A DNA stretch of 38,070 nucleotides from Chloroflexota bacterium (lineage in GTDB: Bacteria; Chloroflexota; Dehalococcoidia; GIF9; UBA5629). The stretch covers positions 1 through 38,070 of the forward strand of contig VGNX01000013.1 of NCBI GenBank assembly GCA_016865855.1. The letters are read 5' to 3'. Made by a program: the position numbers and the translations under genes. The notes below the pieces were generated by a model. The model did no database searches and was not told where the DNA came from. It saw only the letters and a list, made by a program, of their open reading frames with translations. This document shows positions 19,189-35,220 of the stretch, in pieces (the stretch's first letter is position 1; each line of letters begins with the position of its first letter).

Positions 19189-19264
19189 GTAGCACATTGG
19201 CAACGTAGCCCGAAGTGGGGGACCCTGAAGGCCTGCCCCTGCTTGTCATTGCTGCTTTCCCCAC

Positions 19265-19330
19265 TGTCATTGCGAGCCAAAGGCGAAGCAATCTCATAGA
19301 TTGCCACGTCGCTAACGCTCCTCGCAATGG
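19265..19330. repeat. Family C inverted repeat
   Basis: TGTCATTGCGAGCCAAAGGC, GAAGCAATCT on the left and AGATTGCCACGTCGC...GCTCCTCGCAATGG on the right. Long imperfect hairpin. Other copies are at 28794 and a half copy at 30926. Confidence 0.75.
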
Positions 19331-21637: not shown

Positions 21638-21691
21638 CATGGGTGCCAAGAGAGTCTCAAAGAAGTTGGCATAATGGCTTGGAGGTGCGGT

Positions 21692-23467
21692 ATGGAAATG
21701 ACTAATCGTAAGAAGGGCACACCCAAAGTTAAGGAAGACAGATCATTCCGTGAAATTGTAGAAAACTTCACTGACCCTAGAGAAGTTATACGAGAGGCAA
21801 TAAGCAATTCACTCGATTGGTCTGCTTCGATTATTAAGATAACGGTATACGAAGACGCAACTCGAGCTGACCGTGAGTTAGTCATCAAGATATGGGATAA
21901 CGGTCTAGGTCTCACTAGGGAGCGATTCTCCGCATTTTGGAACCTTGCCGATTCTCCAGGGCTACACAGAGATAAGTTTGGGAAGAAAATGGGTGGTAAG
22001 GTGGGAGAGAAAGGGCATGGTACAAAGACCTATTGGAAATGCCGGCAGGTCGAAGTCGAAAGCATTGCAAAGGAGGAGGATGGTAGTGACTGGTATGTCT
22101 TAGGAGAGATGAAAGAACCCATTAACACTCTGGTTCAGGAAAAGAGAGTCCCAGATTATGACTATGTCGAAGCACCTGGCGAAGGAAAAGAGAGTTTTAC
22201 CGAGGTCACAATTAAGGGTTATCATACTCGTACCAACGAAGACTTTCGCCATGAAACCTTGAAAGATTATATCCAGTGGTTCACAAAGTTCGGTTCGGTC
22301 GAACTTGAGTTGGGAATTGAGGGTAACAAGGGCAAGGTAATTGAGTTACAGGGTCTGGGAAAAGGTGATCCAGAAGTACTAGGGTTTGGTCATCCATTTC
22401 CGCCGTTATTAAACAACATAAAGCAATTGCAGAAGCAATATAAGGATACCTGGCCGAAGTACTATGTTAACAAATGGGTTTTTTCATCAGTGCAGATCGA
22501 AGCTTTTCCAGCTAGTAGTATTGATGTTATCTTCTACCTCGAAGGGGACTCAGCAAAGCGTGTGCACAACCCGATGTTGACCCGACAACGCAGACCGCAT
22601 GAACGATGGCACTACACCGTTTCTGATAGATATGGACTTTACGTATGTAGAGATTATATACCACTTCCGCCGAGCCAGCGTGTAAACGAATGGGTTACTA
22701 CCGGGCAAAGCGAATGGACATTGTATCATGCCTTTGTGAATTGTCAGGACTTTGAACTTACTGCCAACAGAGGCGGTATAGGCAATACGGACAGGTCATT
22801 TCTGACCAAGGTGCAAGAGACGGTAGAGAAACTATTCAAGACAAAAATAACAGCCAGTGAGGAGTATAGGGCATACGAGGAGGAGATAGACCTAACCAAA
22901 AAGCGAGGTGCAATAGATACTAGTGAAGAAGATGAAAAAGCGGATGTTGAGAAGAGATACTACCAGGTTAAGAAGAAGCATCTAGCACAATACCAGGCAC
23001 CGAAGCGCCCCTCCGTAACACTTATAGAACCCAGACAGGAAGTCGAAGTGCTAATGCTTTTTACCATCATGAAGGCGTTAAGACCTGACCTATTTGAATT
23101 TGATATCCTGGACTATAGTACAAGCAGAGGAATAGATGCATTGTGCGCGCTGGATCCGACTCAGGGCGGGCTAGAGAGAGGCAATCTTCGATATGTCGAA
23201 TTTAAGAGAGCCTTGACACACGAGTTTGGTGATCACACATTTGCGCGGCTCGCGGCTGTTGTCTGCTGGGAATGTAATCTCGAAGACGGCGCAAAAGTTC
23301 GTGATTTTGCTGGGAAAGAACGGGCGCTACAAATCACTAAGACCGCCGACGAAACTATTTATATGCTATTAGCGCCACGTGACTTGCCTCTTCCAAACGT
23401 AAAGGTATATGTGCTGAAAGATTATCTCAAGGAGAAACTCGGGATTTTTTTCAAGGCACGGATTTAG
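21692..23467 (+). CDS. GHKL ATPase (MORC/MutL/Hsp90-like) with C-terminal PD-(D/E)XK-like domain, probable defence protein
   Basis: From the ATG at 21692 the protein has 591 residues. The N-terminal GHKL ATP-binding site is clear: N-box EAISNSLDWSA (35-45, Glu35 and Asn39), Mg/ATP motif WDNGLGL (68-74) and lid GGKVGEKGHGTKT (101-113). Residues about 180-380 look like the S5-fold that follows GHKL in MORC/MutL, including GLYVCRDYIPLP (315-326) and FELTANRGG. A charged helical linker (390-440) leads to a C-terminal domain with SRGIDAL (Asp482) and YVEFK (Glu503-x-Lys505), which fits a PD-(D/E)XK nuclease core, then HTFARLAAVVCWECN. GHKL-S5 proteins coupled to restriction nucleases are known as MORC-like relatives in predicted restriction systems. 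Here both parts are in one chain with no methylase beside it. GGAGGTG is 4 bases before 21692 and 10 before an ATG at 21698. The frame runs back to 21533, but that part looks non-coding. Confidence 0.72.
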   Translation: MEMTNRKKGTPKVKEDRSFREIVENFTDPREVIREAISNSLDWSASIIKITVYEDATRADRELVIKIWDNGLGLTRERFSAFWNLADSPGLHRDKFGKKMGGKVGEKGHGTKTYWKCRQVEVESIAKEEDGSDWYVLGEMKEPINTLVQEKRVPDYDYVEAPGEGKESFTEVTIKGYHTRTNEDFRHETLKDYIQWFTKFGSVELELGIEGNKGKVIELQGLGKGDPEVLGFGHPFPPLLNNIKQLQKQYKDTWPKYYVNKWVFSSVQIEAFPASSIDVIFYLEGDSAKRVHNPMLTRQRRPHERWHYTVSDRYGLYVCRDYIPLPPSQRVNEWVTTGQSEWTLYHAFVNCQDFELTANRGGIGNTDRSFLTKVQETVEKLFKTKITASEEYRAYEEEIDLTKKRGAIDTSEEDEKADVEKRYYQVKKKHLAQYQAPKRPSVTLIEPRQEVEVLMLFTIMKALRPDLFEFDILDYSTSRGIDALCALDPTQGGLERGNLRYVEFKRALTHEFGDHTFARLAAVVCWECNLEDGAKVRDFAGKERALQITKTADETIYMLLAPRDLPLPNVKVYVLKDYLKEKLGIFFKARI

Positions 23468-23509: not shown

Positions 23510-23600
23510 AGCGGTTTGTTCAGTCTGGTAGCTTTGGAACGGACACTATTTCGAGCCGGTGTATAAGACAGCCAGTATTGTGGACTTGGTCCTGGTGGCG
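23510..23600. repeat. Direct repeat copy 1 flanking the toxin-antitoxin pair
   Basis: About 91 bases, nearly identical to 24324-24413 (roughly half a dozen differences, one of them a single-base gap). It includes GAACGGACACTATTTCGAGC and CTTGGTCCTGGTGGCG. Copy 2 is the true 3' end of the XRE-cupin gene, so copy 1 is a duplicate of that end. Confidence 0.85.
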
Positions 23601-23688: not shown

Positions 23689-23961
23689 CTATGGCCGATA
23701 TGTTGTCTCTGCTCGACGACCTATGTGTAGTATCAGAACGAGATTCTTATCATCGTAAATTTCATAAACTACCCGGTAGTTGCCTATCCTAATGCGGTAA
23801 GCCCTCTCAGCTCCCCTGATTTTTCTGATTCTGTGGGGACGAGGTTCGTCAGCTAAACCTCTTATAGCAGCTCGTAAGTGCTCAAAGTTAGGTCTTTGTA
23901 TTCGCCCCTTCAGCTTTTCTAAATCACGGTAGGCGGCTGGTGAGACTTCAATTCTATACAC
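23689..23961 (-). CDS. Type II toxin, RelE/ParE family
   Basis: A 90-residue basic protein with the family pattern: YRIEVSPAAYRDLEKL (2-17), a middle helix pair, then IRKIRGAERAYRIRIGNYRV and VYEIYDDKNLVLILHIGRR. RelE members cleave mRNA at the ribosome and ParE members poison gyrase. The sequence does not separate them, although the Arg-rich sheet is RelE-like. Its start overlaps the end of the antitoxin gene by 8 bases, the usual antitoxin-first arrangement. Confidence 0.85.
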   Translation of the reverse strand: MYRIEVSPAAYRDLEKLKGRIQRPNFEHLRAAIRGLADEPRPHRIRKIRGAERAYRIRIGNYRVVYEIYDDKNLVLILHIGRRAETTYRP

Positions 23962-24235
23962 TCTTTGCCTCAGTAGCCCTTTCTCGCATGGCTACCGCTT
24001 CCTCTTCCTCCAATTCCTTTTCAACCTCAGACCAGGGGCGCCCTCCTTTTTCTCTCCATTCGGCTCGGGCAGCTTCAATTACAGGCAGTAGCTCGGCATC
24101 CTCGCGACTTTCCAGCCATTCGCGTACCGCATCGGCTATGATGTCACTGGCCGGCATGTGCCTCCTTGCTGCCTCAACCTTTAGAGTCGTGTACAGGTCT
24201 TCATCGTGGAACACGACCGTCATTCTTCTGCTCAT
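23954..24235 (-). CDS. Antitoxin, ribbon-helix-helix type
   Basis: From the ATG at 24235 the protein has 93 residues. The N-terminal half (MSRRMTVVFHDEDLYTTLKV and on) is a ribbon-helix-helix DNA-binding domain. The C-terminal half (about 55-93) is acidic and helical (EKELEEEEAVAMRERATEA) and would wrap the toxin. GGAGGTG lies 4 bases before this start. A longer frame from 24274 was rejected because it begins inside the -10 box. It probably represses its own promoter together with the toxin. Confidence 0.82.
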   Translation of the reverse strand: MSRRMTVVFHDEDLYTTLKVEAARRHMPASDIIADAVREWLESREDAELLPVIEAARAEWREKGGRPWSEVEKELEEEEAVAMRERATEAKSV

Positions 24236-24273
24236 TTTCACCTCCGAGCATATATACTTACATACGCACAACA

Positions 24274-24302
24274 ATTGTAGAATGACCAGAGACGGATGTC
24301 AA
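24274..24302 (-). promoter_or_regulatory. Toxin-antitoxin promoter
   Basis: On the minus strand TTGACA (24302-24297), a 17-base spacer, and TACAAT (24279-24274). Transcription would start near 24267, giving a leader of about 30 bases with the GGAGGTG site. It lies between the antitoxin start and direct repeat copy 2, so the module carries its own promoter. Confidence 0.7.
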
Positions 24303-24323: not shown

Positions 24324-24413
24324 AGCGTTTGTTCAGTCTGGTGGTTTTAGAACGGACACTATTTCGAGCCGGTGTATAAGACAGCCAGTATCGTGGTCTT
24401 GGTCCTGGTGGCG
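24324..24413. repeat. Direct repeat copy 2, the 3' end of the XRE-cupin gene
   Basis: About 90 bases matching 23510-23600. It contains the last codons and stop of the regulator plus 35 bases of downstream sequence. Confidence 0.85.
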
Positions 24414-26222: not shown

Positions 26223-26248
26223 GGCACGTTTCTCCCATCTAACATTAT

Positions 26249-26326
26249 TTGAGAGTGTTTATCCACGCTCCGTCTTCAATGTAATTGTGCCCCTTTAAGA
26301 TAACTTTCTGTAGCGAGGCTAAAGCA
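26249..26326. repeat. Family B repeat, long form, truncated at its right end
   Basis: TTGAGAGTGTTTAT through TGTAGCGAGGCTAAAGC aligns along its length with 17298-17378. The right half of the last hairpin is missing, and the sequence passes directly into the hicA remnant, supplying its stop codon. Confidence 0.7.
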
Positions 26327-26586
26327 GCTTGATAAATTCGTCGACTGATAGTCCGGCATGGCGGATAATGGCTCGTAACGTCCCTTATCCAATTCCTTGT
26401 GAAGGGGGACGACTAACTGGCAATCTGTCTCTTCCACTTTGTGGGAAAAATTATAGCTCATTGGTGATACACATTAAACATGTAGCTCCGAGGCTTTAGC
26501 CTCGGGAGTCCGACCCTAAAGGGTCGGGACTACATTTTCGGACAGCTTGTACACTTTTCGCCGGACAAGGCAGGAATTTTGCTCAT
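26319..26586 (-). pseudogene. hicA: Broken HicA toxin gene
   Basis: Three pieces on the minus strand add up to a HicA mRNA-interferase. The ATG at 26586 overlaps the hicB stop (ATGA) and reads MSKIPALSGEK, the usual HicA start, then runs into a stop. A family B repeat (26480-26535) follows. After it comes SHKVEETDCQLVVPLHKELD in one frame, then GTLRAIIRHAGLSVDEFIKL in another. A single missing base at the GATAAGGGACG site explains the shift. The last codons end on a TAG provided by the neighbouring truncated family B copy. The central part with the catalytic His region is damaged, so no toxin should be made. Confidence 0.75.
26480..26535. repeat. Family B repeat inside hicA
   Basis: TGTAGCT, hairpin CCGAGGC-TTTA-GCCTCGG, hairpin CCGACCC-TAAA-GGGTCGG, ending GACTACA. 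It separates the N- and C-terminal pieces of hicA. Confidence 0.85.
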
Positions 26587-26789
26587 ACTACAACCACTGA
26601 TATCTCAAATTTCTCTTCAGGTACAGGGAGGTTATCCCCCTCGAGCGCGTGAATGTAGCAATTGATAGCTTCCTTGATGTTTTTTAATGCCTCTTCTTTT
26701 GTCTTTCCCTGGCTGACACAACCGGGCAAACTAGGACATTCTGCGACCCAATAACCGTCTTCACCTGGATATAGAATGACCTCTCGCAT
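26583..26789 (-). CDS. hicB: HicB-family antitoxin
   Basis: A 68-residue HicB-like protein: VILYPGEDGYWVAECPSLPG (4-23), CVSQGKTKEEALKNIKEAI and a C-terminal strand ending ISVVVV. This is the partial RNase-H-like fold of HicB without an added DNA-binding domain. GTAGGAGG stands before the ATG. It starts 8 bases after the aminotransferase gene ends and may share its transcript. Its stop overlaps the start of the broken hicA, so it is an orphan antitoxin now. Confidence 0.85.
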   Translation of the reverse strand: MREVILYPGEDGYWVAECPSLPGCVSQGKTKEEALKNIKEAINCYIHALEGDNLPVPEEKFEISVVVV

Positions 26790-28760: not shown

Positions 28761-28793
28761 CCCCTCTTTAGCGAGCGCCTAGCAATCACGGTC

Positions 28794-28860
28794 TGTCATT
28801 GCGAGCCGAAGGCGAAGCAATCTCTGAGATTGCTTCGTCGCTACGCTCCTCGCAACGACA
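28794..28860. repeat. Family C inverted repeat
   Basis: TGTCATTGCGAGCCGAAGGC, GAAGCAATCTCTGAGATTGC and TTCGTCGCTACGCTCCTCGC: a long nearly perfect hairpin, 14 bases downstream of gatA. Confidence 0.85.
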
Positions 28861-30710: not shown

Positions 30711-30766
30711 GTAGTGGCGAGGCTTTAGCCTCGCTCGCGCACGACCCTAAAGGGTCGTGGCTACAT
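30711..30766. repeat. Family B repeat
   Basis: GTAGTG, hairpin GCGAGGC-TTTA-GCCTCGC, hairpin ACGACCC-TAAA-GGGTCGT, then GGCTACA. The gatC-fusA2 gap (30627-31115) holds this copy, a family A copy, a family C half and a palindrome, but no gene. Confidence 0.85.
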
Positions 30767-35111: not shown

Positions 35112-35220
35112 TTGAGAGTGTTTAGCAATGTAGCTGGCAGTTTTAGCCCCGATATCATCATCTACATGTAGCCCCGAGGTTTTAACCTCGGGAACTCGAC
35201 CCTAAAGGGTCGAGGCTACA
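35112..35220. repeat. Family B repeat with leading segment
   Basis: The leader TTGAGAGTGTTTAGCAATGT is followed by the core (35165-35220). The core is TGTAGC, hairpin CCCGAGGT-TTT-AACCTCGGG, hairpin TCGACCC-TAAA-GGGTCGA, then GGCTACA. Confidence 0.8.

Follow-up and report, generated by a model that had tools for sequence, protein, structure and literature searches.

A candidate single-gene defence protein that joins a GHKL ATPase to a probable PD-(D/E)XK nuclease

The window (the whole 38,070-nucleotide stretch of DNA analysed here) carries at 21692-23467, on the plus strand like all features of the gene given below, a single gene whose 591-residue product combines a GHKL ATPase, an S5-like middle domain and a probable PD-(D/E)XK nuclease in one chain. 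We consider it somewhat better than an even bet (probability about 0.55) that this is a self-contained, ATP-gated DNA nuclease that travels as a one-gene cargo and, most likely, serves to restrict phage or other foreign DNA. A defence role for the family is plausible, and we count in its favor the fact that VcSduA, a protein with the same layout, blocks phage. Against the nuclease-defence reading we count the lack of any family or PDB match to the C-terminal domain, an unclear helix in its predicted fold, the haloarchaeal relatives that have no D-ExK residues and the three homologues that lie among housekeeping genes.

In the mechanism that we propose, ATP binding would cause the GHKL domains to dimerise, and the Hsp90/MORC-like middle domains would then shut as a clamp round DNA, with R360 helping ATP hydrolysis. 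Clamping on a non-self feature (possibly a DNA modification, a DNA end or topology) would bring the two C-terminal domains together, and the paired domains would cut the DNA by means of D482, E503 and K505 plus metal ions.

The gene, its ATPase and its middle domain

The open frame of the gene reaches back to 21533, which would give 644 residues, but this longer start is unlikely because the relative in a Dehalococcoidia MAG (L002; 85% identity) begins at the equivalent of the ATG at 21692. A GGAGG at 21681-21685 lies six bases 5' of that ATG. A sequence-only reading of this DNA had given the same coordinates, the same length and the numbering Glu35, Asp482 and Lys505, all of which proved correct.

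The same reading had called the protein a GHKL ATPase, and this is borne out. The Pfam model HATPase_c_3 covers residues 30-129 at 1e-6, over its cut-off (HATPase_c falls under its own, and the Pfam search returned GHKL-type families only), and the protein has motifs I to IV of the GHKL superfamily (E..N, DxGxG, GxxGxG and T), every motif residue being invariant in 10/10 homologues from bacteria, phages and archaea that span 24-85% identity. Motif I (residues 33-45, IREAISNSLDWSA; 21788-21826) contains E35, the predicted water-activating residue, and N39, the predicted Mg residue; motif II (residues 69-73, DNGLG; 21896-21910) contains D69, G71 and G73; motif III, the ATP lid (residues 105-112; 22004-22027), was delimited in the 10-member alignment and reads GEKGHGTK; and motif IV (residues 168-176, SFTEVTIKG; 22193-22219) contains T170. 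NCBIfam gave sub-threshold matches only, the best of them to MutL.

The proposal of an S5-like middle domain (about residues 181-390; 22232-22861) agrees with what we found by structure prediction. An AlphaFold2 model of the full-length protein, built from a four-row alignment with a pLDDT of 45 and used only for Foldseek searches with the ATPase-middle part, matched the N+middle module of Hsp90 (E 4e-7, with some 309 columns aligned), MORC3, MORC4 and SMCHD1 (at about 1e-4) and also topoisomerase VI-B. Judged from this low-confidence model, the protein has a GHKL plus Hsp90/MORC-like S5/middle module. Residues 349-365 (VNCQDFELTANRGGIGN; 22736-22786) include N350, Q352, N359 and R360, invariant in all ten homologues, and from its resemblance to the Hsp90 middle-domain arginine we take R360 to be the ATPase arginine.

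Distribution and genomic setting

Full-length bacterial relatives are found in the L002 MAG, on a mobilizable Caballeronia plasmid (L003) and in three other genomes belonging to the class (L036, L037 and L039), and there are two more in temperate phages from IMG/VR (L008 and L009) and two distant ones on haloarchaeal plasmids (L004 and L005). The 393 genomes of the class yielded four full-length members and three partial or broken ones (G408, G576 and G504), and the same-genus genomes examined held no full-length copy. As judged by sequence identity, relatedness within the family conflicts with taxonomy, the window protein being 77% identical to a member in another taxonomic family (G424) and 40% identical to one in its own (G608). 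The G+C content of the gene is lower than that of its surroundings at 5/5 loci measured. A search of phage records gave no full-length relative, the GHKL part of the L008 protein matching rIIA and that of the L009 protein an annotated ParaMORC3.

The gene had been placed in an island, a claim that does not survive comparison with other genomes. To its left lie argS, trpS and an inositol-monophosphatase gene and to its right HTH-cupin, acyl-CoA dehydrogenase, aminotransferase and Lrp genes; these housekeeping neighbors are 73-94% identical and in conserved order in a same-genus genome (G530) that lacks the GHKL-nuclease gene and has an FMN-reductase-like gene at its site, and in another genome (G568) an acyl-CoA ligase-like gene comes next after the monophosphatase gene. 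The DNA common to the window and L002 (21581-23479; 81% identity) is confined to the gene plus some 110 bases 5' of it, a one-gene transferred unit. Neither a methylase nor a helicase adjoins the gene, just as the sequence-only reading had noted.

Two toxin-antitoxin loci had been described in the same island, of which one looks intact and the other does not. The first, a ParE/RHH module (23689-24274, minus strand), is bracketed by an 87-base direct repeat (23514-23600 and 24327-24413; 94%), the right copy of which contains the 3' end of the HTH-cupin gene; G530 matches this repeat at one place only in the part compared, as if the module had been inserted with duplication of the end of that gene. 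In the second (26240-26789, minus strand), the hicA frame that comes after hicB (26583-26789) is broken by a 57-base palindromic repeat, which recurs at 35164-35220 and as a partial copy near 30742, and the locus is probably non-functional. Two intergenic sites, at 19264-19314 and 28793-28843, share a dispersed repeat of 51 bases (CTGTCATTGCGAGCC...; 90% identity).

Homologues were found on mobile DNA, as had been anticipated, namely on the Caballeronia plasmid and in both phages. The L008 copy has a J-like tail protein gene on one side and a tail-associated gene plus an endolysin gene on the other, and the L009 copy adjoins integrase and repressor genes. Consistent housekeeping neighbors had been named as evidence against the defence reading, and here the outcome was mixed: three of the chromosomal homologues have housekeeping genes around them, but the genes differ each time (methylmalonyl-CoA mutase and hemL-like genes in L036, ctpA-like and rnhA-like genes in L037, and ftsZ and a DUF167 gene close by in L039), as expected of a moving cargo gene. 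Taken together, the different sites in four Chloroflexota genomes, the conflict with taxonomy, the low G+C content and the carriage by phages and a plasmid make up the pattern of a lone, patchy, horizontally moving cargo gene. Defence genes lie near other copies, and we count these as well toward the defence reading: an OLD/HEC-01A-like ATPase gene near the L002 copy, a PDC-S02 gene near a partial copy (L041) and, at L040:2066-6738 (minus strand), a type IIG-like restriction-methylase gene directly upstream of a broken member that has lost the ExK lysine.

The distribution also bears on an alternative that we regard as unlikely, in which the protein is a DNA-repair or DNA-processing nuclease (MutL- or topoisomerase-like) that serves the mobile elements' own replication or recombination and not defence. 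MutL is the nearest GHKL relative by sequence, in NCBIfam and in the PDB, two copies are phage-borne, and a 2008 survey allows non-restriction roles for standalone paraMORC3 proteins (PMC2292703). Set against this are the extreme patchiness of the family, which extends to the lack of a full-length copy in the same-genus genomes, and the fact that the phage copies occupy typical cargo positions, among late genes or beside integrase and repressor, outside the replication module.

The C-terminal domain

About residues 436-591 (22997-23464) form the domain that, from its conserved residues, is probably a PD-(D/E)XK nuclease. E446 (23027-23029), the acidic residue that opens the E-D-ExK pattern, is conserved in seven of the eight bacterial and phage members, and D482 within RGID (23135-23137) and the ExK motif E503-F-K505 (23198-23206) are found in all eight. 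The invariance of D482, E503 and K505 across members spanning 33-85% identity is hard to account for without catalysis. Comparison of the window gene with its L002 counterpart gave a dN/dS of 0.087 overall and 0.067-0.12 across domains, so that every domain is under strong purifying selection, and the value for the C-terminus (0.085) shows that this domain is maintained.

AlphaFold2 modeling of residues 428-591 reached a pLDDT of 80 and a pTM of 0.76 in one of five models, the others being lower. The model has a helix at 450-463 and strands at 471-476, 480-486 (with D482), 500-505 (with E503 and K505) and 520-525, which is the order expected for a PD-(D/E)XK core, but the stretch that leads from the ExK strand to the final strand has no clear helix. 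Foldseek searches with this model against the PDB and viral libraries found no nuclease, the best PDB matches being unrelated barrels, and the C-terminal profile matched no PDB sequence. No Pfam, NCBIfam or PADLOC family spans the C-terminus of the family; that of one member touches Mrr_cat, at an E value of 0.099 only. Alignment with hhalign to Mrr_cat and NOV_C was negative, a result that cannot decide the matter because the C-termini of SduA and paraMORC3, known nuclease families, fail against the same alignments (some rows of which are misframed). The nuclease assignment therefore stands on the conserved residues and is unproved, since Foldseek finds no nuclease and the helix is unclear. 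The PD-(D/E)XK domain proposed from the sequence holds at the level of the motif (D-ExK in 8/8); as a fold it is a candidate, with a helix and three strands in order in the AlphaFold2 model and no nuclease match in Foldseek.

Rather improbable, in our view, is a C-terminal domain that binds DNA or reads the target and has no working nuclease, the clamp acting alone or recruiting another nuclease. Such a domain would fit the Foldseek result and the two haloarchaeal relatives, both of which keep all ATPase motifs and have none of the D-ExK residues, and one haloarchaeal locus has DpdA-, DpdJ- and DpdK-like (phospholipase-D) genes as a possible source of a nuclease; it does not fit the invariance of D482, E503 and K505 among the bacterial and phage members.

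On both plasmids the haloarchaeal gene directly follows a TGT-family transglycosylase gene (L004:10952-13554 and L005:10926-13542). The Natrinema TGT-family gene scores as DpdA-like in PADLOC (1.6e-8), and in the Haladaptatus locus (L005) the DpdJ- and DpdK-like genes lie just upstream of the pair. In their position directly behind a DpdA-like gene the haloarchaeal relatives resemble Dpd (7-deazaguanine DNA modification) systems, whereas the window gene and its bacterial and phage relatives have no DpdA-like partner. A speculative extension, which we would give little weight, is that a separate GHKL-clamp lineage reads a DNA base modification (7-deazaguanine or another) and not sequence, the bacterial and phage versions being stand-alone, nuclease-bearing restriction genes and the haloarchaeal ones, which have lost the nuclease residues, working in a Dpd-like modification locus next to a DpdA-like enzyme, with cutting left to a nuclease of its own gene.

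Relation to paraMORC3, Shedu and MORC proteins

The sequence-only reading had regarded a single chain of this kind as an unusual layout, which it is not, because two known groups already share it. ParaMORC3 proteins are GHKL-S5 proteins with a C-terminal E-D-ExK domain, laterally mobile and in part standalone (Iyer, Abhiman and Aravind 2008, PMC2292703), and VcSduA, the Shedu type I-D protein of Vibrio cholerae, is a single-gene fusion of GHKL to an SduA_C nuclease that protects against phages, the protection being abolished by E27A or K557A, so that both active sites are needed (PMC12137116, 2025). Like paraMORC3, the window family combines GHKL-S5 with a C-terminal E-D-ExK pattern and is laterally mobile and standalone; like VcSduA, it has one gene, an N-terminal GHKL domain, a clamp-like middle and a C-terminal (here predicted) nuclease, and E27 and K557 have direct counterparts in E35 and K505. 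Unlike that of VcSduA, the activity of the family is read from sequence, and the window C-terminus is not recognizably related.

To compare the families by profile, we used four paraMORC3 references in hhalign, including a protein that bears this annotation in Escherichia phage PhiR44_1. These aligned with the window family over residues 26-245 only (Prob 97), and the C-termini aligned with a Prob of 0.7 for paraMORC3 and 3.0 or less for Shedu, whereas as a positive control paraMORC3 aligned with a Chloroflexota GHKL-SduA_C protein (L014) over its full length (Prob 100) and in the C-terminus (Prob 96). SduA_C (DUF4263, PF14082) is matched neither by the window protein nor elsewhere in its genome. 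We therefore rejected membership in paraMORC3 and in Shedu type I-D alike. That the protein is an ordinary VcSduA-like member of either group is very doubtful: the domain order is identical, the length similar, standalone copies exist and the two active-site residues correspond, but the C-termini align below Prob 4, SduA_C is missing, motif III reads GEKGHGTK where the paraMORC3/Shedu I-D type has GRKGIGKLA, and the references stand beside a Dcm-type methylase, for which the window's genome gave no match.

Since the C-termini fail to align where the control succeeds over its full length, we infer from these profile comparisons that the window family forms a GHKL lineage of its own, whose C-terminal domain is different and uncatalogued. 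A PADLOC search with the window protein gave no family even at E values as high as 1, and genomes that carry the family are under-annotated because it is absent from this defence catalogue (PADLOC 2023). If the preferred reading of an ATP-gated defence nuclease is right, GHKL clamps would have been fused at least twice to unrelated nuclease domains to give single-gene defence proteins, which would point to the clamp rather than the nuclease as the sensing part, and the family would offer a compact system for studying how a single protein spares its own DNA.

The GHKL plus S5 module is also shared with the MORC ATPases, with MORC3 and MORC4 among the structures matched by the full-length model. 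We nevertheless place the protein outside the MORC family proper, because the segment G315-LYVCRDY-I323, judged by eye against the GhXhhpXXRhl motif given in PMC2292703, has Ile323 in place of the defining arginine in 10/10 homologues.

The four plasmid and phage paraMORC3 references adjoin a Dcm-type (cytosine) methylase gene, and the window gene does not. Dependence on such an enzyme finds no support, since none was found in G000, G608 or G639. Among the methylase families searched, G639 gave no N6_N4 match and no N6_Mtase match over the cut-off; G000 has many N6/N4 methylase matches and may hold a partner methylase in trans. The Chloroflexota protein of the positive control (L014:1216-3231, minus strand), which comes from the window's phylum, matches PF14082 weakly and is of the VcSduA/paraMORC3 type.
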